The notes beneath the pieces are model-generated. The model saw only the letters and a program-made list of their open reading frames with translations. It searched no databases and was not told the DNA's origin. DNA of 64,000 nucleotides from Xanthobacteraceae bacterium (GTDB lineage: Bacteria; Pseudomonadota; Alphaproteobacteria; Rhizobiales; Xanthobacteraceae): assembly GCA_022841625.1 (NCBI GenBank), contig JALHRD010000007.1:1-64000 (forward strand), in the 5' to 3' direction. The position numbers were made by a program, and so were the translations under genes. Shown in pieces: positions 21,491-40,126 of this stretch (positions are counted from its first letter, which is position 1; every line of letters begins with the position of its first letter).

Positions 21491-23290
21491 CTAGGTCTCC
21501 ACCGGGGTCGGCGCGTCGTCGGTTCGTGGCCGTTCGCCGTCGCTGACCATGAACTGGGTTTTTGCCAGTTCGGCAAAATGGCCGCCGCGGCGCACCAATT
21601 CGTCGAAGCTTCCGGTTTCAATGATGCGCCCGCCCTCGAACACCAGAATGCGCGTGGCATTGCGGATGGTGGCCAGCCGGTGCGCAATCACAAAGGTGGT
21701 GCGGCCCTTCATCACCTCGTCCAAGGCCGCCTGCACCTTGGCCTCGGTGAGCGCGTCAAGCGCGCTGGTCGCCTCGTCGAGGATCAGGATCGGGGGATTT
21801 TTCAAGAGCGCGCGCGCGATCGAGATACGTTGGCGTTCGCCGCCCGACAGCATGCGGCCGCGTTCACCGGCGCTGGCTTCAAGCCCCTGCGGGTTGCGCT
21901 CAAGAATTTCGAGTGCCTGCGCGCGCCGGCAGGCGTCGAGCAGTTCCGCTTCGGTGGCGTCGGGTTTGCCGACGCGCAAATTGTCGGCGATCGAGCGGTT
22001 GAACAACAGTGCTTCCTGGAACACGACGCCGATGTTCTTGCGCAAGCCCGACAAGGTGAGGCCGCGGATATCCATGCCGTCGATTTTCACCGAGCCCGAT
22101 TGCGGGTCGTAGACGCGGTGCAGCAAAGCAAGCGCCGTTGACTTGCCGGCTCCGGTTGCGCCGACCATCGCGATAGTCTCGCCGGGCAGCGCGGTAAAGC
22201 TGAGATCCTGCACCGCGGAGCGTTTGCCGTCGTAGGAGAAGCTGACGTCAGCGAACTCGACCAGCCCCCGCACTTGGCCCGGATCGACCGCATCGGGGCG
22301 GTCGCGGACCGCAGGGGCGGTGTCGAGCACGTCAAAAAATTCCTGCAGCCGCGGTCCTTCCATCACCATATGATTGGCGAAATGTACGACGTGTTCGAGT
22401 TTGCCGATCAGCATGGTGGCGAAACTCATGAACATCACGATTTCGCCGACGGTGGTCTGGCCGTGGACATAGAAGTAGATGCCGAGGATCAGGATCGTCA
22501 GCATGGTGATGGTGGTGGAGGCCTTGGTCAGTACCGTCGCCAGCGCCCACCACCACAGCACCGGCATTTGCGCGCTGAGCAGCTCCCGGCCGACCTTGCG
22601 CATCGCCGATACTTCCATATCGATGCGGGCGAAGCTCTGAATCAGGGCGATGTTGCCGAGCGTGTCGGAGGTGCGCTCCGCCTGGTCCGTATAATAGGTC
22701 TCGACCGAGCTTTGCAGCTTTTCGGTCCGGCGCAGCACGAACGCGATCAGGATGGCAAAGACGCCGCACAGCGCCATCAACAGCAGCGCATAACGCCAGT
22801 TGAGGAACAGCGTCAGCGGCATCAGGATGAACAGCGAAACGAAACTGGTGAAGTGATCGCGGAAGAACGAGAGCCACATCCCCCACAGGGTGTTGGTGCC
22901 GGTGATCATGACTTTCATCAGCCGGCCGGAATGGGTGCCGCTGTGATAGCTGAGCGGCAGTTGCAGGATGTGTCCGAAATAATCCGCCCGCACCGCCTGG
23001 CAGTGGCGATGGGCGAGCCGGTCGGCGTGCAGCGAGACGATGGTGCCGGCGACGATGATGAAAAGACCGAAGCCGACCCAGGCCGCCACCAGCGGGAACA
23101 GGGCGCCCCAATCCAGTTGTCGCGCGCCGCCTTGCGCGTTCGCCAGGGTGTCGACAATGCGGCCGAACAGGATCGGCTCGACGAAATTGGCCGCGGCCAG
23201 CCCCACGCCGGCCAGCGCCAAGATCCAGCCGAGCTTGGCCTCGGGCCCGAGCAATTCGAGCACGCGTAGATAAATCCGCAGAAATTTCAT
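21491..23290 (-). CDS. ndvA: ABC exporter, cyclic beta-1,2-glucan type (NdvA/ChvA-like)
   Basis: A 599-residue half-transporter: an N-terminal six-helix membrane domain and a C-terminal ATPase. Visible motifs are Walker [10 protein letters not shown], signature [15 protein letters not shown] and Walker [13 protein letters not shown]. The N-terminus ([18 protein letters not shown] ... [12 protein letters not shown]) and size agree with NdvA/ChvA, which moves cyclic beta-1,2-glucan to the periplasm in rhizobia and agrobacteria. No ndvB synthase gene is in the window. The name rests on recognition of sequence features, so a related lipid or glucan exporter remains possible. Confidence 0.85.
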
Positions 23291-30564: not shown

Positions 30565-30780
30565 CGCGGCACCGGCCTGGACCTTGCTCCTGATCTTGGC
30601 GCGCACGGCATCTTGGCGCGCACAGCGCGCGTGACGGTTTCATTGCCCCGCCACATTGCCGTGCAAAGCTCTATGCATGCCGCGCTAGAACGTCACCCAG
30701 CGGCAGCGTCACTTTGAGCTTATTTCGGTGCGCGCGCCCCGCCATGTCAGGGTGGGCCCGGTGCGAAAGCCGACGATGTG

Positions 30781-30815
30781 CAAAAAAACCTGCCAACGTG
30801 AAAGATCGGCAGGTT
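30781..30815 (-). terminator. minus-strand Rho-independent terminator without an annotated gene upstream
   Basis: Read on the minus strand, AACCTGCC (30815-30808) pairs with GGCAGGTT (30794-30787) over a 13-nt loop and runs into seven consecutive T. On the plus strand no T-run follows. The nearest clear minus-strand gene is beyond a plus-strand small gene, so the terminated transcript may be an unannotated small RNA. Confidence 0.6.
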
Positions 30816-30849
30816 AAGTATCTATGATTACAAGTGAATTGTGCCTTTT

Positions 30850-30964
30850 GCGATCTTACAGCGCGCTGTAAGAGGGTGAAAGACTTACGGCGCAAGCATC
30901 TGATAAAATTGATAAACTCGGCTTTTTCCGGTTTTGCCGTAAGAGCGTAAGACTGTAAGATCGC
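30850..30964. repeat. nested inverted repeats built from CTTACAG/CTTACGG motifs
   Basis: A 12-bp outer inverted repeat (GCGATCTTACAG at 30850-30861, complement at 30953-30964) encloses an 8-bp inner one (CTTACGGC 30884-30891, complement 30936-30943). In addition 30855-30872 is a perfect 18-bp palindrome (CTTACAGCGCGCTGTAAG). In all, six CTTAC-type half-sites occur within 115 bp. It could be a folded RNA or a cluster of protein-binding half-sites. Confidence 0.75.
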
Positions 30965-31047
30965 GACAATCGGCCGACACGGCCTGTGCGCGCGCCGTTA
31001 GCGGCGGTTGCGGTGGCCAAATGGCCAATAATTTCCCATAAGGGGCT

Positions 31048-31254
31048 ATGGCAACGCACAAGCCTTCACGCGCCGACGAGGCGCATATCGTTACGGCCGA
31101 GTATCAGCGCAAGCAAAAGGCGAGCGCTGAACGCATGGCGCAGCTCAAGATTTTGCGGCTTGCGCAGGCGACGAAGGCCGAGACGCCCAAGCCGAAGCGC
31201 AAGGGAAGCGCGGTCCGTCATACCAAAACCCGCGGGTTTGGCCGTTGGTCATAG
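31048..31254 (+). CDS. small basic protein of unknown function
   Basis: A 68-residue, Lys/Arg/Ala-rich soluble protein. AAGGGG precedes the ATG by 4 nt. The first half is predicted helical (YQRKQKASAERMAQLKILRLAQATKA) and the C-terminus is basic (KPKRKGSAVRHTKTRGFGRWS). No family recognised. The coding call rests on the ribosome site and amino-acid composition. Confidence 0.5.
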   Translation: MATHKPSRADEAHIVTAEYQRKQKASAERMAQLKILRLAQATKAETPKPKRKGSAVRHTKTRGFGRWS

Positions 31255-31293
31255 CGCGATGCGTGTTGGCGGAACAAATCCGACCGCGCGGGG

Positions 31294-31503
31294 CTAACCG
31301 CTTTTGGGCCGCTGCGGCTGGCGCTTGCGCTTGTATGAGCGCTGGCGCTCTCCGCACACCCACTCGTCGTCATGTGCCAGCGACTTGTAGGCCGCCGCCA
31401 CGCTGAAATGGGCGTCGCGATCGTCGCCGGGCGCGACCCCGCGGGCGCTGCGCAGCGCGTCGGCGGCCATCTTGCGAAACGTTTTCGACCTGCTGGCTGG
31501 CAA
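31294..31503 (-). CDS. small hypothetical protein, possibly a remnant
   Basis: Up to 69 residues. The central part (FRKMAADALRSARG ... DDRDAHFSVAAAYKSLAHDDEW) resembles short helical proteins repeatedly present in Bradyrhizobium-like genomes, recalled from memory. The first start is TTG at 31503; an ATG at 31470 would give 58 residues. No clear ribosome site is visible for either. It may be a degraded copy, as the reading upstream breaks off. Confidence 0.45.
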   Translation of the reverse strand: MPASRSKTFRKMAADALRSARGVAPGDDRDAHFSVAAAYKSLAHDDEWVCGERQRSYKRKRQPQRPKSG

Positions 31504-31868
31504 GGGTCAGGCCTTTCAGTGTTCGTGAATGGAAGAACTTAATCGGATCTCGTGTTGCTCCGGCAGCACCGCCGCGCTGGTTCCCCAGCTGCGCAGCGGC
31601 GACGGCGCCGCCGACCTTGTATCGGGCGTCGACAATCCGGCTTTCAGCCTTGCGCTGGGGCGATCGTTTGCGCCGGCTCAAAGCCGCCGCCCGGACCCTG
31701 GAAATGAATGATAATGCGGTCAAGATCGACGCGATATAACAATGATATCAAATATTCGACCAAGCTCATAGATGTTTCAAAGTTCTGCTACTTGTAATGT
31801 TTGTTATTGAACACATTTGATAAGTCTATTCGGAAATATTTCTGAGTAGAAATACGAAAGATCATTTC
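31504..31868. other. intergenic region containing an AT-rich block
   Basis: No gene is supported between the minus-strand small gene and the 50-residue gene at 31869. About 31725-31870 is visibly AT-rich against a GC-rich background and contains GAAATATTTC, a 10-bp palindrome. It is probably a promoter and silencer region for the small genes that follow. Confidence 0.55.
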
Positions 31869-32021
31869 ATGATCAGCATCGATATTACTGCATCTGAGCC
31901 GAACAAGCCCGCGAACCCGTCCCAGCCCAGCCAAACGCCTCAGCAGACGCAGCAGCCCGGCCCGCAGACCCAGCAGCAGGGCGACCAGGCCGACAAAGAC
32001 AAGCCGGCGCAGCAGAAATAA
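31869..32021 (+). CDS. 50-residue low-complexity Gln/Pro-rich peptide
   Basis: An ATG at 31869 opens a 50-codon frame ending in TAA at 32019-32021. The product starts MISIDITASEPNKPANPSQ and continues with Gln, Pro and Thr-rich repeats, ending DKDKPAQQK. It is hydrophilic and probably disordered. The ribosome site is weak (GAAAG). It directly follows the AT-rich block and lies 30 bp before a small membrane protein gene, with which it may form a transcript. Function unknown. Confidence 0.45.
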   Translation: MISIDITASEPNKPANPSQPSQTPQQTQQPGPQTQQQGDQADKDKPAQQK

Positions 32022-32051
32022 AAAGATCATTCGATCCCAAGGAGATTTCTT

Positions 32052-32219
32052 ATGACCGATCCAGCCGTCCAAAGCCCCGCGGTCGCCAAGCCCGAGGTTT
32101 CAATCAATGACAATTTGCCCACCAGCAGCCCAAGCCCCCGGAGCACGCTGATCGGCTTTGCTTGCGTCGTCGGGGTCATCACACTCTTTACGTTGTACAC
32201 GCAGCTTATCGGGTTCTGA
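32052..32219 (+). CDS. 55-residue single-span membrane protein
   Basis: An ATG at 32052 with a strong AAGGAGA 6 nt upstream opens a 55-codon frame ending in TGA at 32217-32219. The first 30 residues are polar and Ser/Pro-rich; residues 32-55 form a hydrophobic helix (LIGFACVVGVITLFTLYTQ). It is thus a small tail-anchored membrane protein. The ribosome site is among the best in the region, which is the main support. No family recognised. Confidence 0.65.
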   Translation: MTDPAVQSPAVAKPEVSINDNLPTSSPSPRSTLIGFACVVGVITLFTLYTQLIGF

Positions 32220-32400
32220 CAGTCCGGCATTACCGCTGCCGGCAGAACGCGGTCGACGCGCCGAATGCCCCAGGGGTGCATCCTCCTGAGCGCGTGCTCT
32301 TGGGGCGGATGCTTTTGGGGCGGCGGCTCTTGAGGCACATTTGGGCGCGTTCGGAAAATCCGTACCAAAATCGGCGACAGGGTGACCCGCTTGGCGATCG

Positions 32401-32718
32401 ATGACTCCGTTTAACTATGACATTATCGCCGAACTGTTTCCGACCAGGGATGACGTGGCGCTATTTCCCGTCAAGAGTCGAAGGGTCAAGCGCCCGCCGT
32501 TAGGCTATGGGCGGTTTGCGCGCGCGGCCTATGCAATCCGTTTCGCAATCGAAGATCTTCCGGCCGACCTGCTCTCGGCCACGTGCCTGCAAGTCGACGA
32601 CCAGATATTCAACTGCGACGGAATTCGCCGGCTGTACGACAGCAAAGATTACCCGCTGGTCCGGCGCGCAGGCCCCGATGAGGGCGGCGAATACCAAACA
32701 TTATTCCCGGAGCATTAG
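32401..32718 (+). CDS. hypothetical protein
   Basis: A 105-residue soluble protein with no recognised domain. It contains YGRFARAAYAIRFAIEDLPADLL, LQVDDQIFNCDGIRRLYDSKDYPL and ends in an acidic tail (GPDEGGEYQTLFPEH). Amino-acid use is balanced and looks coding. No clear ribosome site is visible before the ATG at 32401. It belongs to the cluster of small unknown genes at 31-33 kb. Confidence 0.6.
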   Translation: MTPFNYDIIAELFPTRDDVALFPVKSRRVKRPPLGYGRFARAAYAIRFAIEDLPADLLSATCLQVDDQIFNCDGIRRLYDSKDYPLVRRAGPDEGGEYQTLFPEH

Positions 32719-32815
32719 GAGAACAGGGCGCGCGTACCAGCGAACCGCGCAAATTGCGGCGAAGGAATCGACCGAACCTCAAGGCCGCTCGGTCGCTCGG
32801 TGGTCAGCGCCGAAC

Positions 32816-33187
32816 CTACAGCTTCACGTTAGCAAGCAATTCCGCGCAGGCACCCGCCACGCCGTAGTCAGGTGCGGTCGCGCCCGGCATTGTAGCCCAT
32901 CCGCCTTTTTCAACGAATGTGCCACGGTCCCAAGCGTAACTGATCTTGTTCAACGCCGTGAGATTCGCGGCGACATCCTTCGCCTGGCGAAACTTGTCGA
33001 CGCAGATTGGTGCAAGCGCAACGACGACGGCCGCAGCAGCGCGTTCCTTCGTCGTCTTTTCGACGGTGCTGCCAAGCGTCCAGCCGCCCCAGTTAAAGCC
33101 AACGACGATGGTCACGACAACGCCGGCCATCGCACCTTGCACGAGACGCGTAAGCGATTCGCCTTGCAGAATTGCAGGAAGTTCCAT
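32816..33187 (-). CDS. small membrane-associated protein of unknown function
   Basis: A 123-residue protein. Residues 15-40 include a hydrophobic helix (LVQGAMAGVVVTIVVGFNWGGW), followed by EKTTKERAAAAVVVALAPICVDKFRQ and a C-terminal ALNKISYAWDRGTFVEKGGWATMPG segment. Similar proteins are, as far as I recall, present in Bradyrhizobium-type genomes without known function. The ATG at 33187 has AAGGCG upstream; a longer in-frame start at 33322 would run through a palindrome and looks non-coding. Confidence 0.7.
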   Translation of the reverse strand: MELPAILQGESLTRLVQGAMAGVVVTIVVGFNWGGWTLGSTVEKTTKERAAAAVVVALAPICVDKFRQAKDVAANLTALNKISYAWDRGTFVEKGGWATMPGATAPDYGVAGACAELLANVKL

Positions 33188-33211
33188 GATTTTCGCCTTT
33201 TGATAAGGGAG

Positions 33212-33231
33212 GCGCGCTGCATGCAGCGCGC
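33212..33231. promoter_or_regulatory. 20-bp perfect palindrome upstream of a small membrane gene
   Basis: GCGCGCTGCATGCAGCGCGC is its own complement over 20 bp and lies 25 bp upstream of the start codon at 33187 (minus strand). It may be an operator or a leader hairpin. Confidence 0.5.
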
Positions 33232-33328
33232 GGACACGTCCGGAACGGCTTCCAAGAGCCTGTTCCGAACGCAGCTCAATTGTGAGTTCGATTGTGCCTG
33301 CCGATGGCAACCGGGCTGCCAATTGCGG

Positions 33329-33359
33329 AAACGGCGTCTTCGGTACGACGCCGTTTTTA
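33329..33359 (+). terminator. Rho-independent terminator with a UUCG-containing loop
   Basis: AAACGGCGTC (33329-33338) pairs with GACGCCGTTT (33347-33356), loop TTCGGTAC, and is followed by further T residues. It points along the plus strand, where the last supported gene ended at 32718, so the transcript it stops is not obvious. Confidence 0.7.
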
Positions 33360-33877
33360 TGCAGCTCGCAGAGAGACTACAGCTTACCTGTATTCAAGTA
33401 CATGGGATGTGGGGCGAAAAGCACAAGTGGGACCGAAAAATGACGGCGAAGCAATTGTGCCGGCGGTTAGTACTCTCCTCGCGTGAGGGTCCTGAAATGG
33501 CCGATCGCCTTAAAGGCCATCGGCTGCGTTTGCAATGACTTAGCGTGTTATCGCGCCCGCGAGCGGGATCCAATTCAACCTGACAATGTTTCAGCCCGGC
33601 AGAAGCGGCGGCGATCAACGCCTGCCCTTGAATTCGACGCCGTTGTCCCCACATATAAGAACTTGTCCAAACAAACTGGTCTTAGGAACAGCGCGCAGTC
33701 GCGGCTGCTTCGATCGATTCTTCGTTTGTTTTCGCGCGCGATTTCTAATCTCCAGCGCCCCGGATTTACATCTCGTCGATTCACGCAGCCGGCGCTGGTG
33801 TTTCGAAGATTTCGTCGCATCTCTGCGACCAAATCCGCGACCCAAATACGGCATCGGTCGAACATCAGGTTGAGGTT

Positions 33878-34843
33878 ATGACGATTGAACATGCGCGCGC
33901 GCATGCACTACCAAAGCCTTGGGGCGTTGCGGATCTCCGTCCTTGGAGCAACGTGAAACATGACAGCGGTACCGTCGGCGAAATCTGGTATGAGAGACCC
34001 GGCAGGTCGGCCGCAGATTCATTGCTCTTGCTGAAGTTGCTGTTTACGAGCCAGCAGCTTTCCATTCAGGTTCATCCGGGCGATGCGTTCGCCCATACGA
34101 TGGGCCTGCCAAGCGGCAAGACCGAAGCCTGGTACGTCCTGAGCGCCGCTCCTGACGCCAAGGTTGCCCTCGGCCTCGATCGAGTTCTGACACCGCAGCA
34201 ACTACGCGAGGCTATCGACGACGGCTCGATCGCTGAGCGCGTCGTGTGGCGGCCTGTGTCAGCAGACGATGTGATTGTCGTCCCCGCTGGTACGATTCAC
34301 GCGATTGGCGCGGGCCTCGTCATAGCAGAAATCCAACAACGGAGCGACACGACATTCCGCCTATTCGATCATGGTCGAGCGCGAGAACTTCATATCGAAA
34401 ACGCCATCTCGGTGGCGAATGCCGGACCAACCGGTCTTCAGGTGCAACCGCGCCAGCTGACGGAAGAACGGACGCTCCTCGTTTCCGGTCCATACTTCGT
34501 GTTCGAACGGATCAACCTCGCTCCGGATTCCTCGTGGTGTCTGGAAGCGGATCGAGAGACTTGGCTTCTCGTTCTCAGCGGCAGCGCAATCACCGGATCG
34601 TTCGACGTCGTCGTGGGCGATGCGGTTTTTGCGCAATCGGACCGGATCGAAATACACCCCGGCAGCGTCGGCATGGTGGGCCTCGTGGCGTATACGGGCG
34701 GCGAACCGATTCCGCACCTGCTGCAACGCTTCGCACCGCCAAGCGTGACGGGCGCAGCACCGCCAGCAGAGGCGCAGGCATTGACTTCTCGCACTCAAAC
34801 AAGGGCGGTCACGACAAGCGGCCGCTTGGAAACAACCAAATGA
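33878..34843 (+). CDS. manA: class I mannose-6-phosphate isomerase
   Basis: A 321-residue zinc-dependent isomerase of mannose-6-phosphate and fructose-6-phosphate. Cupin-type metal motifs are seen in LSIQVHPGD, PSGKTEAWYVL and VPAGTIHAIGAGLVIAEIQQ, with the end of the core in RLFDHGRARELHIENA. It is shorter than E. coli ManA, like other bacterial short forms. The start ATG follows GAGGTT. Its stop overlaps the ATG of the glycosyltransferase gene (ATGA at 34840-34843), so translation is coupled. It links the mannoside cluster to central sugar phosphates. Confidence 0.92.
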   Translation: MTIEHARAHALPKPWGVADLRPWSNVKHDSGTVGEIWYERPGRSAADSLLLLKLLFTSQQLSIQVHPGDAFAHTMGLPSGKTEAWYVLSAAPDAKVALGLDRVLTPQQLREAIDDGSIAERVVWRPVSADDVIVVPAGTIHAIGAGLVIAEIQQRSDTTFRLFDHGRARELHIENAISVANAGPTGLQVQPRQLTEERTLLVSGPYFVFERINLAPDSSWCLEADRETWLLVLSGSAITGSFDVVVGDAVFAQSDRIEIHPGSVGMVGLVAYTGGEPIPHLLQRFAPPSVTGAAPPAEAQALTSRTQTRAVTTSGRLETTK

Positions 34844-37257
34844 AATCGTTCCAGCGTGTTGCGTTCATCGGCAATCACCTTCCGCGCCGCTGCGGAATCG
34901 CGACCTTTACCCACGATCTTCATCAGGCGATTTCGACAGCGCGCCCGGATTTGGAAACCTGCGTCGTCGCAATGACGGACCCCGGTCGCTCCTATGACTA
35001 TCCGTCGGCGGTGCGCTTTCAGGTTCAAGACGAAAAAATCGGCGACTATGTTCGGGCGGCCGCGTTCATGAACAATGCGGGCTTCGATGCTGTTTCACTT
35101 CAACACGAATATGGAATTTTTGGTGGTGAGGCTGGCGGGAATATCGTCGAATTGTTGTCGCGCCTCGAAATGCCGATTGTCACGACGCTGCACTCGGTGC
35201 TGGCCAAGCCGACGCCCACCCAGCGCGACGTGATGGGCCGAATCATCGATATTTCGGCGAAAATCGTCGTCATGTCGGAAAAGGGTCGGGAACTGCTGCG
35301 TTCCGTTCACAACGTGCCAACGCACAAGATTGAGGTCATACCGCACGGAATACCCGACTTTCCGCTCGTCGAATCGCATCACGCCAAAGCAAAATTCGGC
35401 TTTGTCGGAAAGACGGTCATTTTAACGTTCGGCCTGCTGTCTCCGAACAAAGGCATCGAGACCATGCTCGACGCCATGCCGGAAATCATCAAATCCTGTC
35501 CGAGTGCTGTTTATGTCGTTCTTGGCGCGACTCATCCTCACCTCTTGCGGGATCAGGGCGAGGCCTATCGCGACGGCTTGACGGCGCGCGTCCAGGAACT
35601 CGGCATCGGGGATCATGTCGTTTTCTTCAACCAGTTCGTCGACCAGGCCAGACTGTTGGACTTCATTTCGATGTGCGATGTCTATGTGACGCCGTATCTC
35701 AATGAGGCCCAGATGACGTCAGGCACGCTCGCCTACAGCTTTGGTCTGGGAAAGGCAGTCGTATCGACACCCTACTGGCACGCCGCAGAACTGCTGAGCG
35801 ACGGACACGGCATTCTGGTTCCCTTTGGGGATGCCGACGCGGTGGGCAGCGAGATCGCCGGTTTGCTGACTGACGACTTCCGACGCAACGCAATGGGCGC
35901 GCGCGCGTATGCTGCGAGCCGGTCGATGACCTGGGCACAGTCGGCCAAGCGCAACCTGGCGGTCTTTGAGAGTGCGCGCGAGCGCCCCCGGCCTGGAAAA
36001 GTGGCTCCAATTGACCTGATCGTCTCCGCGCGCAAGCAACACCGCATTCCGGAAGTGCGGATGGAGCATTTCCTTTCGCTCTGCGATAGTACGGGCTTGC
36101 TGCAACACGCGGTCCATTCAATACCTGACCGATCCCACGGCTACTGTGTCGACGACAACGCGCGCGCGCTGCTGTTGTCTTGCGCACTTTCAGGCGCTGG
36201 TGAAGCACAACTACCGGAGATAATGACGACACGCTTTGCCGCGTTCATCCAGCACGCATGGAATCCGCACACCCGTCGATTCCGCAATTTTCAAAGCTAC
36301 GACCGACGATGGCTGGAAGATCAGGGATCGGAAGACAGTCATGGTAGGACACTTTGGGCATTGGCCGAATGCGCAGGGAAGGACGCTGACCCGTCGCGCC
36401 GCCGATGGGCGGCAGCGCTTTTCACGGCCGCGCTTCCTGCCGTCGAGGCGTTCTCCTCTCCGCGGGCCTGGGCCTTCTCGCTCCTGGGGTTGGACGCCCA
36501 TTGCAGATTGGTTGGTGGTGACATCTTGGCCGAGCGCATGCGCAGACTATTGGCCGACCGATTGATGGCGCTATTTGCTGCGACAGAATCCAAAGATTGG
36601 GTCTGGTTTGAAGACCTGCTCGCCTACGACAACGCGCGGCTTCCCCAGGCGCTGATCCAAACCGGCCTGACGACCCAGACGCGTCCCTATGTTGAGGTCG
36701 GTCTCCGATCGCTCCGTTGGCTCATGTCGCTTCAAACCGCGTCCTGCGGAAGCTTCAGGCCAGTTGGGACCATGAGTTTCGGCAGGCTCCGCCAGCAGCC
36801 CGAAGCGTTTGATCAGCAACCCGTCGAGGCGGCTGCAACGATTTCGGCTTGCCTTGCTGCATGGCAGGTGGATGGTGGCGCGGAGTGGCCGGTGGGGGCG
36901 ATGCGCGCGTTCGAGTGGTTTCTCGGCGAAAACGACCTGCAGACGGCACTGATCGATTCGGAAACGGGCAGCTGCTCGGATGGACTCCACCCGGATCGGC
37001 CAAATGAGAACAAGGGCGCAGAATCAGTACTGTCGTATCTTCTTGGCCTGGTAGAGATGCGTCAGTTCAAGCGTGCCGTTGCGGCAGCCCGAGCCTGTCC
37101 GGCGCCTAAATTAGTGCCCGTCGCCAGCAGCGCGATTCCAGCTCGAGCAACCCCAGGGAGCATCTTTGTCCCAATCCCAATTCTTGAATCGCCAGACCTT
37201 GTATCTGCGCCCGGACCCGGCCCGGGTCGTCGTCCGGCCCTTCAAGCCGGCGACTGA
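34840..37257 (+). CDS. GT4-type glycosyltransferase with C-terminal helical extension
   Basis: An 805-residue protein in two parts. Residues 1 to about 390 are a GT-B fold glycosyltransferase of family 4: RRCGIATFTHDLHQAI, LQHEYGIFGGEAGG, KIEVIPHGIPDFPL, LTFGLLSPNKGIETMLDAMP and the donor site segment VTPYLNEAQMTSGTLAYSF. After about residue 410 comes a helical region (LLQHAVHSIPDRSHGYCVDDN, ARALLLSCAL) that resembles an alpha/alpha-barrel. From its neighbours it is probably a mannosyltransferase; donor and product are not shown by sequence. Start is by ATGA overlap with manA. The end overlaps the next gene by 92 bp. Confidence 0.9.
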   Translation: MKSFQRVAFIGNHLPRRCGIATFTHDLHQAISTARPDLETCVVAMTDPGRSYDYPSAVRFQVQDEKIGDYVRAAAFMNNAGFDAVSLQHEYGIFGGEAGGNIVELLSRLEMPIVTTLHSVLAKPTPTQRDVMGRIIDISAKIVVMSEKGRELLRSVHNVPTHKIEVIPHGIPDFPLVESHHAKAKFGFVGKTVILTFGLLSPNKGIETMLDAMPEIIKSCPSAVYVVLGATHPHLLRDQGEAYRDGLTARVQELGIGDHVVFFNQFVDQARLLDFISMCDVYVTPYLNEAQMTSGTLAYSFGLGKAVVSTPYWHAAELLSDGHGILVPFGDADAVGSEIAGLLTDDFRRNAMGARAYAASRSMTWAQSAKRNLAVFESARERPRPGKVAPIDLIVSARKQHRIPEVRMEHFLSLCDSTGLLQHAVHSIPDRSHGYCVDDNARALLLSCALSGAGEAQLPEIMTTRFAAFIQHAWNPHTRRFRNFQSYDRRWLEDQGSEDSHGRTLWALAECAGKDADPSRRRWAAALFTAALPAVEAFSSPRAWAFSLLGLDAHCRLVGGDILAERMRRLLADRLMALFAATESKDWVWFEDLLAYDNARLPQALIQTGLTTQTRPYVEVGLRSLRWLMSLQTASCGSFRPVGTMSFGRLRQQPEAFDQQPVEAAATISACLAAWQVDGGAEWPVGAMRAFEWFLGENDLQTALIDSETGSCSDGLHPDRPNENKGAESVLSYLLGLVEMRQFKRAVAAARACPAPKLVPVASSAIPARATPGSIFVPIPILESPDLVSAPGPGPGRRPALQAGD

Positions 37258-38464
37258 ACCCCGAGACCTCAACCCAACCGATAAGCTCCGGGCCAATCAT
37301 ATCGTCGACAGGGTTCTTCGGCTCGATCCCGCAGCCGCCGCGCGACAACTGACAGACGTGCTCGAAAACTTCGAAGGCCGTCACAGGAACCTGCTCGATA
37401 TCTTCGAGGCGCGCGCTCAGGATATGGAGCCGGCGCTGGCGCCGCATGTGGAATTGAACGAAACGCAACGCCGACTGATTGGCGCTTATTTTCTTCATGA
37501 ATACTCGTTCGAGGCATCGGCCTTGTTCAATCCGAGTATCGTCCGGCATCCCGACCAGACCGGCGCGCCGGCAAATGGCTGCCGGTTCATCTTGAGTCTT
37601 CGCGCCGTTGGCGAGGGTCATATTTCATCGCTGACGTTCCGTTCCGGCACCGTCGCCGCAGACGGTAGCGTGACGGTCGATCCAACCGCGCGCCTTGCAT
37701 CGATCCCGAAGATTCATAGCCGGACGCCCCAGCACAATGGCGAGGGTGTCGAAGTCATCTTCCGGCCCGACGGAGACCTGAGCGAACGGGTGATCTTTCC
37801 GATCACCGACACCCAAGCAAACGGCATCGAGGACGCCCGATTCGTTGAGTTCAACGACGACGGAAAAAGGACGTTCTATGCGACCTACACCGCCTATAGC
37901 GGCCGATCGATCCGTTCTGAATTGATCGAAACGACCGATTTTCGATCATTCCGGATGACACCGCTCAGCGGTTCGGCGGCGGGCAATAAGGGCATGGCGC
38001 TATTTCCGCGGAAGATCGATGGCCGCTATGCGATGATCGCTCGGCAGGACAATGAGAACCTCTATCTGATTTATTCCGACGACCTTCATACATGGGACGG
38101 TGGTCGCTCGATCCTTCAGCCCGAGTATCCCTGGGAATTCGTCCAGATCGGCAATTGCGGCTCACCCGTCGAGTTGGACGATTGCTGGCTGATGTTGATT
38201 CACGGGGTTGGCCCAGTCCGAAAATATTCAATTGGGGCTGTTCTCCTGGACAAGAAGGATCCCTCAAAGGTTCTTGCGCGCTCCCGCGATCCTCTGATTC
38301 GTCCCGAGCCCACGGAACGCGAGGGTTATGTGCCCAACGTTGTCTATACCTGTGGCGCAATGCGTCACGGCGCCCGGATCATCTTGCCTTATGGGGTATC
38401 CGACACCTTTTCGACTTTTGCGACGATCGAGATCGCCACGTTGATGAAAGCCGTTGCGGGCTGA
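37166..38464 (+). CDS. glycoside hydrolase family 130 protein (beta-mannoside phosphorylase/hydrolase)
   Basis: A 432-residue GH130 enzyme with the five-bladed beta-propeller pattern. Visible family segments are NGIEDARFVEF (catalytic Asp region), YLIYSDDLHTWDGG, IGNCGSPVELDDCWLMLIHGV, YSIGAVLLDKKDPSKVLARS and EGYVPNVVYTCG. GH130 members split or make beta-1,2- or beta-1,4-mannosides, many by phosphorolysis giving mannose-1-phosphate. The start is TTG at 37166 with GGGAG 5 nt upstream; conserved N-terminal sequence (LYLRPDPARVVVRPF) begins at once, so the 92-bp overlap with the glycosyltransferase gene is real. Phosphorylase or hydrolase cannot be decided here. Confidence 0.92.
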   Translation: MSQSQFLNRQTLYLRPDPARVVVRPFKPATEPRDLNPTDKLRANHIVDRVLRLDPAAAARQLTDVLENFEGRHRNLLDIFEARAQDMEPALAPHVELNETQRRLIGAYFLHEYSFEASALFNPSIVRHPDQTGAPANGCRFILSLRAVGEGHISSLTFRSGTVAADGSVTVDPTARLASIPKIHSRTPQHNGEGVEVIFRPDGDLSERVIFPITDTQANGIEDARFVEFNDDGKRTFYATYTAYSGRSIRSELIETTDFRSFRMTPLSGSAAGNKGMALFPRKIDGRYAMIARQDNENLYLIYSDDLHTWDGGRSILQPEYPWEFVQIGNCGSPVELDDCWLMLIHGVGPVRKYSIGAVLLDKKDPSKVLARSRDPLIRPEPTEREGYVPNVVYTCGAMRHGARIILPYGVSDTFSTFATIEIATLMKAVAG

Positions 38465-38538
38465 TGTCTACGCGCGGAGTCCATTGTCTCATTTGGTGAT
38501 CATGCCCGCAGCAGGATGCGTTGACCACGGCGCCAGCG

Positions 38539-39450
38539 ATGGAGATCATGCAGGTACTTTTCATCGGACAGACTTATATTGACGTGACCTTTCTTACCGA
38601 CCGGATGCCAACCGGCGACGAGAAACATGTGGCGTCGGCTTACGCCGTCTCATTTGGCGGTAACGCGGTCACCGCCGCCTTCTGCTGCGCGAAATTGGGA
38701 GTTGTACCGGATGTACTCACGACCGTCGCGGATGACTGGCTCGGGCGCATGTTTCTGGACATGGCGGCCAAATATGGACTGTCGATCCACGCCAGAAAAG
38801 TCGGAACGTCGTCTTTGTCGTTCATCATGCCGAAAGATGGCAAGCGGGCCATCGTCCGCTGTCGTGACGCCGACTATCTCCACCCGTTTCCGATCCTGAA
38901 CCTGTCAGGGTGCCGCGCGCTTCATTTGGACGGGCACCAGCCGGACGCTGCGGTTCACTATGCCAAGCTATGCCGGGATGCGGGGGTTCTCACCTCGCTC
39001 GACGGTGGCGGACTGCGGTCGAATACCCACGATCTCCTCCGCTACGTCGACGTGGCGGTCGTGGCCGAGCGCCTGTGCCAGCAGATGGGGCATGATCCGG
39101 CAACGATGCTCGACTACCTTAAGAGCCGGGGCTGTCGGATTGGCGGGGTGACGCTGGGCGAGCGCGGATTGGTCTGGTACGATGCCACCGGCGCGGTGCG
39201 GACGCTTCCTGCTCTTGCTGTGCCGTCCGATAAAGTTCTTGATACCAGTGGGGCCGGAGACATTTTCCACGGCGCCTATATTTGTTCTTACCTGACCAAT
39301 CCGGCGATGACTTGGGAAGAACATTTCCGTTTCGCGCGCGCGGCCTCCGCCTACAAGATCCAACATCTCGGCAATGAGGCCGGCTTGCCGACACTCGCGG
39401 ACATTGCTTCCGTGGCGAGCGCGTTCGAAGCGCCAGTGCCGCCGATCTGA
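38539..39450 (+). CDS. PfkB family carbohydrate kinase
   Basis: A 303-residue ribokinase-fold kinase. The N-terminal sugar-site block is seen in FIGQTYIDVTFLTDRMPTG and VSFGGNAVTAAFCCAKLG; the C-terminal ATP and catalytic motif is DTSGAGDIFHGAYI, with the base Asp in GAGD. It probably phosphorylates a sugar released by the preceding GH130 enzyme; the sugar is unknown. Starts at 38521 (TTG), 38539 and 38548 (ATG) are all possible; AGGA precedes the first and GGAG the last. The last five codons (VPPI then stop) lie inside the 72-bp repeat, so the original C-terminus may differ. Confidence 0.88.
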   Translation: MEIMQVLFIGQTYIDVTFLTDRMPTGDEKHVASAYAVSFGGNAVTAAFCCAKLGVVPDVLTTVADDWLGRMFLDMAAKYGLSIHARKVGTSSLSFIMPKDGKRAIVRCRDADYLHPFPILNLSGCRALHLDGHQPDAAVHYAKLCRDAGVLTSLDGGGLRSNTHDLLRYVDVAVVAERLCQQMGHDPATMLDYLKSRGCRIGGVTLGERGLVWYDATGAVRTLPALAVPSDKVLDTSGAGDIFHGAYICSYLTNPAMTWEEHFRFARAASAYKIQHLGNEAGLPTLADIASVASAFEAPVPPI

Positions 39451-39507
39451 AGTTCCTGCAGCGGCTGCGGCAAATTCGGTTGGGAACTTCGGATCGAAAA
39501 GCGGCGC
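39436..39507. repeat. 72-bp dispersed palindromic repeat, copy 1
   Basis: Matches 44528-44599 in 62 of 72 positions by eye, without gaps. The ends are inverted (GTGCCGCCGATCT... / ...GATCGAAAAGCGGC) around a core TGCGGCAAATTCGGTT. It overlaps the 3' end of the PfkB kinase gene and provides its stop codon (39448-39450). Confidence 0.85.
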
Positions 39508-39544
39508 TAGCCTGACATATTGGTCGATCCCGCCGCACTCGACT

Positions 39545-39772
39545 TCATGCGAAGAAACCAAATTCCGCGTGCAATTTGCGATACGATCTTTTGAGTTTCG
39601 CGGTCGCATAACGCCGTGCGTTGTTAGGTCTGTCATCGGAACTGCGCAGGCTTTTATAGGCTTCGATATAGTCTGTCTCTTCGACCGGTTTGTTGTGGTT
39701 GGCTTTCAGCCATGCGACGTGGGCCGGCTGATGTTGTTTAGAGCACCGATCCCAATCAAATTCCCGTTTCAT
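39545..39772 (-). CDS. small basic protein of unknown function
   Basis: A 75-residue soluble protein: MKREFDWDRCSKQHQPAHVA, then WLKANHNKPVEETDYIEAYKSL and a basic helix (RYATAKLKRSYRKLHAEF). An ATG at 39772 is chosen; an upstream in-frame start at 39787 adds five residues. No family recognised. It points toward the repeat and the PfkB gene. Confidence 0.55.
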   Translation of the reverse strand: MKREFDWDRCSKQHQPAHVAWLKANHNKPVEETDYIEAYKSLRSSDDRPNNARRYATAKLKRSYRKLHAEFGFFA

Positions 39773-40039
39773 GCTTTCACTTTCCACGCGTGCTGATTAT
39801 GGAGATCGGGACCGCGCACGAATGCGGCCGGATCGGATCGAGCGCCGTCTTGCCCGCCCACCGAGGGCCAACGAGCAGGACAACGGGCGCTTCGGTGAGG
39901 GCCTCGACCGGCCGCCGGTGAATGAAGCGTCGGAACAAACGATTATCCTGAATCGCGATCCGGCGATGAGGAGTAGGATATCCGGCAATTAGGAATCAAC
40001 GGAGCGGTGATTAGGCGCCGAAAATAGGAATAAATACTT

Positions 40040-40126
40040 TGGTGCCCCTGGCCGGACTCGAACCAGCACGATGTTGCCACCAACAGATTTTGAGTCTGCC
40101 GCGTCTACCAATTCCGCCACAGGGGC
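40040..40126 (-). tRNA. tRNA-Leu (CAA)
   Basis: On the minus strand an 87-nt cloverleaf starts GCCCCTGTGGCGGAATTGG, with acceptor stem GCCCCTG paired to CAGGGGC, a long variable arm (class II, as in Leu), T-loop GGTTCGAGTCC and an encoded 3' CCA (40040-40042). The anticodon loop CTCAAAA gives anticodon CAA, reading the UUG codon. Confidence 0.96.

Follow-up and report, generated by a model that had tools for sequence, protein, structure and literature searches.

The first 64,000 nucleotides of contig JALHRD010000007.1 from a Xanthobacteraceae bacterium (assembly GCA_022841625.1), referred to here as the window, carry a run of four genes for a mannose-6-phosphate isomerase (ManA), a glycosyltransferase, an enzyme of glycoside hydrolase family 130 (GH130) and a PfkB-family sugar kinase. 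We found that the conserved unit within this run is a two-gene core, the transferase and the GH130 enzyme, accompanied by replaceable mannose-phosphate supply genes, and that the four-gene order is local. The transferase is a fusion of a family 4 glycosyltransferase (GT4) with a predicted C-terminal (alpha/alpha)6 barrel, and this fusion occurs in Pseudomonadota, Fusobacteriota and Deinococcota. Our tentative reading, to which we give somewhat less than an even chance, is that these two enzymes form a mobile module that handles a cytosolic mannoside, which would likely serve as a turnover pool, a reserve or a protectant.

Relatives of the transferase numbered 110 in a scan of species genomes, and 80 loci were kept; flank lengths vary among these loci, and all counts of neighbours are lower bounds. 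GH130 adjoins the transferase on the same strand in 74 of the 80 loci. At three of the remaining six (L008, L051 and L069) the contig ends at or inside the transferase, which is not the case at L052, L065 and L077, and a genome-wide search found a GH130 homologue in the genomes of L051, L069 and L077. The two genes were also present in the identical 8 of 101 genomes, the window's own included, and in none of the others (E <= 1e-40 for the transferase and E <= 1e-3 for GH130), and neither was matched in the seven other genomes of the genus. Among 299 genomes of the phylum, 15 had a transferase match of at least 560 bits and 14 of these also had a match to PF04041, the Pfam family of the GH130 protein. 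In the exception, G128, the transferase match lies at a contig start, and in G136 the PF04041 match is on a different contig and in a shorter frame; a further 15 of the 299 genomes had PF04041 without a transferase at that score. The grouping of transferase and GH130 exceeds chance, and the pairing drawn by an earlier reading made from the letters of the window (the sequence-only reading) held up. The grouping is weaker for manA, which precedes the transferase at 53 of the 80 loci and stands together with both core genes at 52; a stricter position test gives 51 instead, the frames running together in L013 and L027. It is weak for the kinase, found within 6 kb in five loci, on the same strand in four and on the opposite strand in one. 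The four-gene order, which had been put forward as the unit to look for in other genomes, was found in 4 of the 80 loci only (L001, L003, L006 and L014).

All four open reading frames were located on the forward strand as first described, with the ATGA overlap of manA and the transferase at 34840 and the 92-bp overlap of the transferase and GH130 genes. The 74-bp gap given between GH130 and the kinase stands if the kinase starts at ATG 38539, and becomes 56 bp with TTG 38521. The features of the locus are:

33878 to 34843, forward strand: manA, a divergent short class I mannose-6-phosphate isomerase gene and replaceable supply gene (open reading frame).
34840 to 37257, forward strand: core gene 1, the GT4-(alpha/alpha)6 fusion transferase of 805 aa (open reading frame, Pfam, 60-sequence alignment, AlphaFold2 (AF2) model).
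34840 to 35979, forward strand: N-terminal GT-B/GT4 domain, residues 1-380, with a non-canonical donor site (Pfam; PimA and MshA matches; residue counts).
36043 to 37095, forward strand: predicted C-terminal (alpha/alpha)6 barrel, residues ~402-752 (AF2 model, fold matches, invariant residues).
37166 to 38464, forward strand: core gene 2, the GH130 enzyme of 432 aa, 'long' clade, TTG start (PF04041, conservation of the start region, residues, tree).
37832 to 37834, forward strand: codon of catalytic Asp223 in an IEDAR motif (alignment).
37988 to 37990, forward strand: codon of Lys275 in an NKG motif, which probably corresponds to the lysine of beta-1,2 specificity (alignment; excerpts of PMC4599007).
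38042 to 38044, forward strand: codon of Arg293, candidate phosphate-binding residue (alignment).
38201 to 38203, forward strand: codon of His346 in HGVG, candidate phosphate-binding residue (alignment).
38521 to 39450 (TTG 38521 or ATG 38539), forward strand: PfkB-family sugar kinase, peripheral and lineage-specific (PF00294).
30565 to 40039, no strand: variable segment with the module, ~9.5 kb (flank comparison with genome G299).
40040 to 40126, reverse strand: tRNA-Leu (CAA), segment boundary (ARAGORN; flank comparison).

The supply position is filled in different ways among the lineages. A Sphingobium amiense plasmid carries, in this order, groES, groEL, manC, manA, transferase, GH130 and phosphomannomutase, and genes for the steps from fructose 6-phosphate (Fru6P) to GDP-mannose thus adjoin the core. 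Sinorhizobium has manA, transferase and GH130, with a cold-shock protein gene close by, and two Novosphingobium plasmids carry the transferase-GH130 pair alone. Ahead of a long GH130 and the fusion, Ilyobacter carries short members of both families, one GT4 and one GH130. After the fusion of Deinococcus come a short GT4 and a 323-aa protein assigned to GH130 by Pfam. An open reading frame resembling the AGE-epimerase-family (PF07221) protein of L048 lies within 6 kb at 7 of the 27 loci without manA (L048, L056, L071, L072, L073, L075 and L076) and at none of the 53 loci with it, and a protein of this family is a possible non-homologous replacement of manA. The nearest solved relative of the window's kinase by sequence is the sulfofructose kinase 7ag6 (E 2.7e-22).

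The transferase (E <= 1e-40) was found on 28 plasmid records, on 25 of them with at least 80% in one place. The plasmid hosts include Sphingomonas, Sphingobium, Neorhizobium, Rhizobium, Novosphingobium, Croceicoccus, one Ilyobacter (Fusobacteriota) and one Deinococcus; DNA near-identical to the window's was not found on plasmids. In G299, a genome of the same genus, contig C145 has the left and right flanks of the module in order, with ~16 kb without a listed match between them, and the right-flank match begins at 40040, the 3' end of tRNA-Leu; in the other six same-genus genomes the two flanks were not found on one contig. The segment around the module is thus variable, and its right bound, where a conserved flank starts, is the 3' end of tRNA-Leu. 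The module genes have 58.1-60.5% G+C, against 63.1-63.7% for the 20 kb on each side, and an exact repeat of at least 15 bases of the tRNA 3' end, as an attachment repeat, was not found in the window. A palindromic repeat of ~75-85 bp was observed at 39425 to 39515; it begins within the kinase gene, at the 3' end. It has at least 40 matches in its own genome including itself, the others at 77-91% identity (40 of 72 candidates scored), dozens more copies in related genomes and a strong hairpin (z -4.0); this dispersed repeat is possibly a REP-like element.

The family assignments rest on profile scores. The transferase scored 60.6, 59.6 and 33.6 bits against PF13692, PF00534 and PF13439, all above cut-off (26.4-27 bits for the two best GT4-type models), the GH130 protein 126.3 bits against PF04041 (cut-off 26) and the kinase 91.2 bits against PF00294 (cut-off 25.8). 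ManA fell below both curated cut-offs, with 50 bits for TIGR00218 (116.2) and 14 bits for PF20511 (22); its homologues in the same position on two plasmids are annotated as class I mannose-6-phosphate isomerase. In the 4.9-Mb genome that contains the window, the transferase is a single copy, the GH130 gene is the sole PF04041 match and manA the sole TIGR00218 match. Since a ManC homologue (619 bits) and two phosphoglucomutase/phosphomannomutase (PGM/PMM) proteins are encoded elsewhere in this genome, GDP-mannose can probably be made. Most transferase homologues are shorter than the window's protein (51 of 59 are 721-785 aa long), and its residues 754-805 had a predicted local distance difference test score (pLDDT) below 50 in the model; the residues beyond ~754 and the 92-bp overlap are therefore a lineage feature.

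The GH130 protein carries candidate features of a mannoside phosphorylase. N122, R146, E222, D223 and K275 were kept in 82 of 83 aligned sequences, with a gap in one, and R293, H346 and D413 in 81, with a gap in two. Arg293 and His346 align with the Arg and His of 7fip, and the Arg also with that of 3was; these two residues are candidates for phosphate binding. The catalytic Asp, D223, and the -1 subsite residues N122 and D413 were found by motif rather than by alignment to BT3780, the roles of such Asp and Asn residues in GH130 being described in excerpts of PMC4599007. The same source gives a lysine, BT3780 Lys199, as the mark of beta-1,2 enzymes. Lys275 agrees with this determinant: in an alignment that leaves BT3780 itself outside, each of the four aligned beta-1,2 enzymes of solved structure has Lys at its position, and each of the five aligned beta-1,4 enzymes of solved structure has Arg. 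Hydrolases of the family carry acidic residues in place of the basic phosphate-binding ones (excerpts of PMC4599007), and because Arg293 and His346 are basic we consider a hydrolase unlikely, with the limit that the two positions were not aligned to the BT3780 Glu positions.

In a sequence search against solved structures, the best match was 7fip (121.5 bits), a beta-1,2-mannobiose phosphorylase and thus the nearest solved GH130 by sequence, followed by 9fj8 (120.5 bits) and Lin0857. In a tree of ~200 C-terminal residues the long GH130s formed a single clade (support 0.87) that joins Lin0857 and Uhgb_MS at a node of 1.0, and the protein scored 152.4 bits against the beta-1,2-mannobiose phosphorylase equivalog NF052550, below its cut-off of 450. 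According to excerpts of PMC8950772, Uhgb_MS uses mannose 1-phosphate (Man-1-P) with mannose or alpha-1,2-mannobiose, and its products are beta-1,2-mannobiose, alpha-1,2-mannotriose and a beta-1,2-capped alpha-mannotriose. From these sequence comparisons, we infer that the window GH130 is a reversible beta-1,2-mannoside phosphorylase or synthase. Asp223, Lys275, Arg293 and His346 agree with the earlier assignment of a mannoside-cleaving or phosphorolysing enzyme.

The GT4 half of the fusion is less orthodox. Its GT-B fold matches include PimA, the retaining MshA, and BshA, and PimA, a phosphatidylinositol mannosyltransferase that transfers alpha-mannose from GDP-mannose, is also its best solved match by sequence. 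Canonical GT4 enzymes that use nucleoside-diphosphate sugars have an Arg...Lys pair and an EX7E motif. In an alignment of 60 fusion sequences (A1), Lys204 was kept in all 60, Leu199 replaced the usual Arg in all 60 (placement of the gap in the PimA alignment decides whether Gly198 or Leu199 is opposite the Arg), and the two Glu positions of EX7E are taken by Gln291 (60/60) and Tyr299 (58/60, Cys in two). The short GT4s adjoining the core in Ilyobacter and Deinococcus retain the Arg and EX7E. The AF2 model of the full-length protein had a mean pLDDT of 85.2 and a predicted TM-score (pTM) of 0.51, and the relative placing of the two halves in it is unreliable; the top 50 of its fold search held GT-B enzymes and 7TEM.

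Structure prediction of the ~400-residue C-terminal part was run, and gave a confident (alpha/alpha)6 barrel when the domain was predicted alone (pLDDT 92.8, pTM 0.92). Its fold matches were 7TEM (Z 38.1, 2.6 A over 334 residues), cellobiose 2-epimerase (Z ~30) and GH76 and GH9 rows (Z ~24-30), with identities of 6-20% and a profile match to 7TEM at E 3e-9. Among 14 sequences reaching Fusobacteriota and Deinococcota, the acids D438, D439, E591, E663, D714 and E728 are invariant, and H423 is the only invariant His in the barrel. Of 28 invariant polar or aromatic residues, 22 lie in the first turn of the six helices taken as inner, or in the loop that leads into it (38% expected, binomial P 1.4e-5), six of the seven invariant acids included; inner and outer helices were assigned by alternation rather than from coordinates. 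In (alpha/alpha)6 barrels, the side where the inner helices start is the active-site face. Because the invariant residues cluster on this presumed face, we read the C-terminal half of the model as a second catalytic domain. Of the two functions first proposed for it, this one is favoured, and the invariant cluster led us to reject the other, a helical domain that limits product size. AGE-type epimerases have a two-His arrangement, which seems absent here because only H423 is invariant, and an epimerase of this type is thought unlikely as the identity of the barrel.

In the model that we favour, the GT4 half would add an alpha-mannose to an acceptor from GDP-mannose or another mannosyl donor, the fused domain would act on the resulting mannoside, for instance by trimming or transfer, and GH130, whose conserved residues are observed, would reversibly add or remove a terminal beta-1,2-mannose with Man-1-P and phosphate. 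ManA would interconvert Fru6P and mannose 6-phosphate, and the supply genes vary by lineage; elsewhere ManC with phosphomannomutase, or an epimerase-family protein, occupies the supply position. ManA, and elsewhere ManC with phosphomannomutase, would feed both donors, and the kinase may bring free mannose or fructose back into the pool of hexose phosphates. This differs from the earlier proposal that the transferase makes a mannose oligomer which GH130 breaks down. GT4 enzymes are retaining, and the linkages that they form are therefore alpha. Because GH130 acts on beta-mannosides, the bond formed by the transferase is probably not the bond that GH130 acts on. The conserved pair and the candidate phosphorylase features support that proposal, the mismatch of alpha and beta links is its weak point, and the suggested reserve remains a guess.

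Several points weigh against the favoured model. With the canonical Arg and EX7E missing from the GT4 half, GDP-mannose as the donor is uncertain on sequence grounds. The genomes of L008, L052 and L065 gave zero GH130 matches in the genome-wide search, and manA and the kinase lie outside the conserved core. In the Deinococcus stretch, a long GH130 was not among the annotated genes and the GH130 there is of the short type; at the specificity position the short GH130 has Lys in Deinococcus and Arg in Ilyobacter. Two of the three basic phosphate-binding positions were placed, with Arg293 and His346 as candidates, and the GH130 reaction may run only towards phosphorolysis in cells. By analogy with Uhgb_MS and its alpha-1,2-mannotriose product, relatives within GH130 may form links other than beta. 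The genes, their conservation, the residues and the predicted folds are observed; every reaction, its direction, the product and the role are proposed from them.

The surroundings of the module bear on the competing explanations. The note that no exporter stands beside the genes holds at direct adjacency; further out, an NdvA/ChvA-type glucan ABC exporter gene lies at 21497 to 23290 on the reverse strand, 10.6 kb left of the module (NF010178, 886 bits, cut-off 733), and an ABC-type ATPase open reading frame was found within 6 kb on either strand at 12 of the 80 loci (L001, 880 to 1779, reverse strand, and 11 others). Frames resembling groEL occur within 6 kb at 8 of the 80 loci, one of them a short fragment (L024), and on the Sphingobium plasmid; the loci listed for such frames are L009, L011, L012, L017, L019, L023, L024, L036 and L091. 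A small protein encoded at 32819 to 33322 on the reverse strand has no Pfam match, and similar frames lie near the module in 13 of the 80 loci. The largest recurrent clusters of neighbours were antisense shadows of module genes and were left unused. A phage-integrase frame recurring by GH130 was rejected as part of the module, its coordinates being those of an antisense shadow of GH130; the Phage_integrase domain was confirmed in the one frame tested, at L046. A general-stress promoter was likewise rejected: an EcfG-like motif was not found just upstream of the window operon, the nearest lying at 33242 to 33266, more than 600 bases before manA, and across loci it was in weak excess (7 of 78, against 93 of 3240 background stretches of 600 bases). 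A sigma-70 promoter scan gave 2 sites where 2.2 were expected, and terminator-like sites numbered 11 against 7.3 expected.

A different product might be a small stress-protective mannosyl glycoside, a compatible solute formed when the GT4 mannosylates a small acceptor and recycled by GH130. The groEL-like frames, the groES-groEL pair that immediately precedes the supply genes in Sphingobium and the cold-shock gene in Sinorhizobium would fit this, as would the small-acceptor enzymes MshA and BshA among the GT4 fold matches. We nevertheless consider it unlikely, given the absence of the EcfG-like motif just upstream of the operon, its weak excess elsewhere and a second catalytic barrel that is hard to account for with a disaccharide. 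Rather unlikely, too, is a more ambitious version of our own model, in which the fusion would be a bifunctional sugar polymerase of a new type: its GT4-like half, with a rebuilt donor site that is perhaps fed by Man-1-P in place of a nucleotide sugar, would act with the (alpha/alpha)6 catalytic half and with GH130 to make and recycle an intracellular mixed alpha/beta-mannan, a bacterial counterpart of mannogen spread over at least three phyla by plasmids and islands.

The core might instead take part in salvage, with imported beta-mannosides degraded and Man-1-P fed into GDP-mannose, as proposed for Teth514_1788/1789 of Thermoanaerobacter. In the cluster of that organism, too, two GH130 phosphorylases stand with a GT4 gene and one for a mannose-1-phosphate guanylyltransferase (excerpts of PMC4264767), PfkB and ManA could process freed mannose, and the ATPase frames near the core at 12 loci, of whatever transporter type, would fit. 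The Thermoanaerobacter cluster has in addition a sugar ABC importer and a GH5 enzyme according to the same excerpts, whereas an importer is not annotated by the core in six plasmid stretches (from PLSDB gene tables, which are incomplete) and the sole transporter among the scanned flanking genes of the window is the glucan exporter; we find salvage doubtful. Modification of a surface glycan or glycolipid, with the product exported by genes elsewhere, appears improbable. By sequence, a phosphatidylinositol mannosyltransferase is the closest GT4 of solved structure, beta-1,2-mannose is present in some O-antigens (excerpts of PMC4264767) and the NdvA-type exporter is 10.6 kb away, but a flippase, polymerase or exporter is not annotated by the core in the same six stretches with their incomplete tables, and a phosphorylase without an evident signal sequence (judged by eye) is unlikely to act on an exported glycan. 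The sequence-only reading is partly supported: what it picked out is real, conserved and given a sensible function class, but the unit is smaller and mobile and the transferase more unusual than it proposed.

In the open-access literature searched for a GT4-GH130 pair, a description of this fusion was not found among the matches listed, and a paper on YPO2471 (7TEM) was not found in the same literature search. The window GH130 shares its Pfam family with Lin0857, Teth514_1788/1789 and Uhgb_MS, along with the positions of the catalytic Asp, the beta-1,2 Lys and the Arg and His, and differs from them in ~80-115 extra residues before the aligned part, in its own clade and in its linkage to a GT4 fusion. 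As in the window core, GH130 stands beside a GT4 gene in the Thermoanaerobacter cluster, which also has a mannose-1-phosphate guanylyltransferase (excerpts of PMC4264767); the ABC importer and GH5 gene of that cluster do not adjoin the window core among the flanking genes scanned. The fusion has its GT-B fold and Pfam GT1/GT4 models in common with PimA/PimB' and MshA-type GT4s, and differs in having Leu199 instead of the Arg and Q...Y instead of EX7E. Its barrel has the (alpha/alpha)6 fold of YPO2471, AGE epimerases, GH76 and GH9, a comparison at the level of fold; identities are 6-20%, and the barrel has a single invariant His.

GH130 enzymes are mostly described as degraders of dietary, plant or host mannans (excerpts of PMC8950772); here, shared neighbourhood and shared occurrence tie such an enzyme to an uncharacterised transferase whose second domain is enzyme-like. 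The closest parallel in concept is the mannogen of Leishmania, with which the module would have in common a beta-1,2-mannan that stays in the cell and is turned over by enzymes of five-bladed-propeller fold; the GT108 enzymes of Leishmania are dual transferase-phosphorylases of a separate family (excerpts of PMC8950772), and the window system is known from its genes alone. If the pair makes a mannose chain, it would represent an unrecognised class of intracellular bacterial carbohydrate and could, if the model is true, offer a phosphate-driven route to beta-1,2-mannosides, which are otherwise hard to make.

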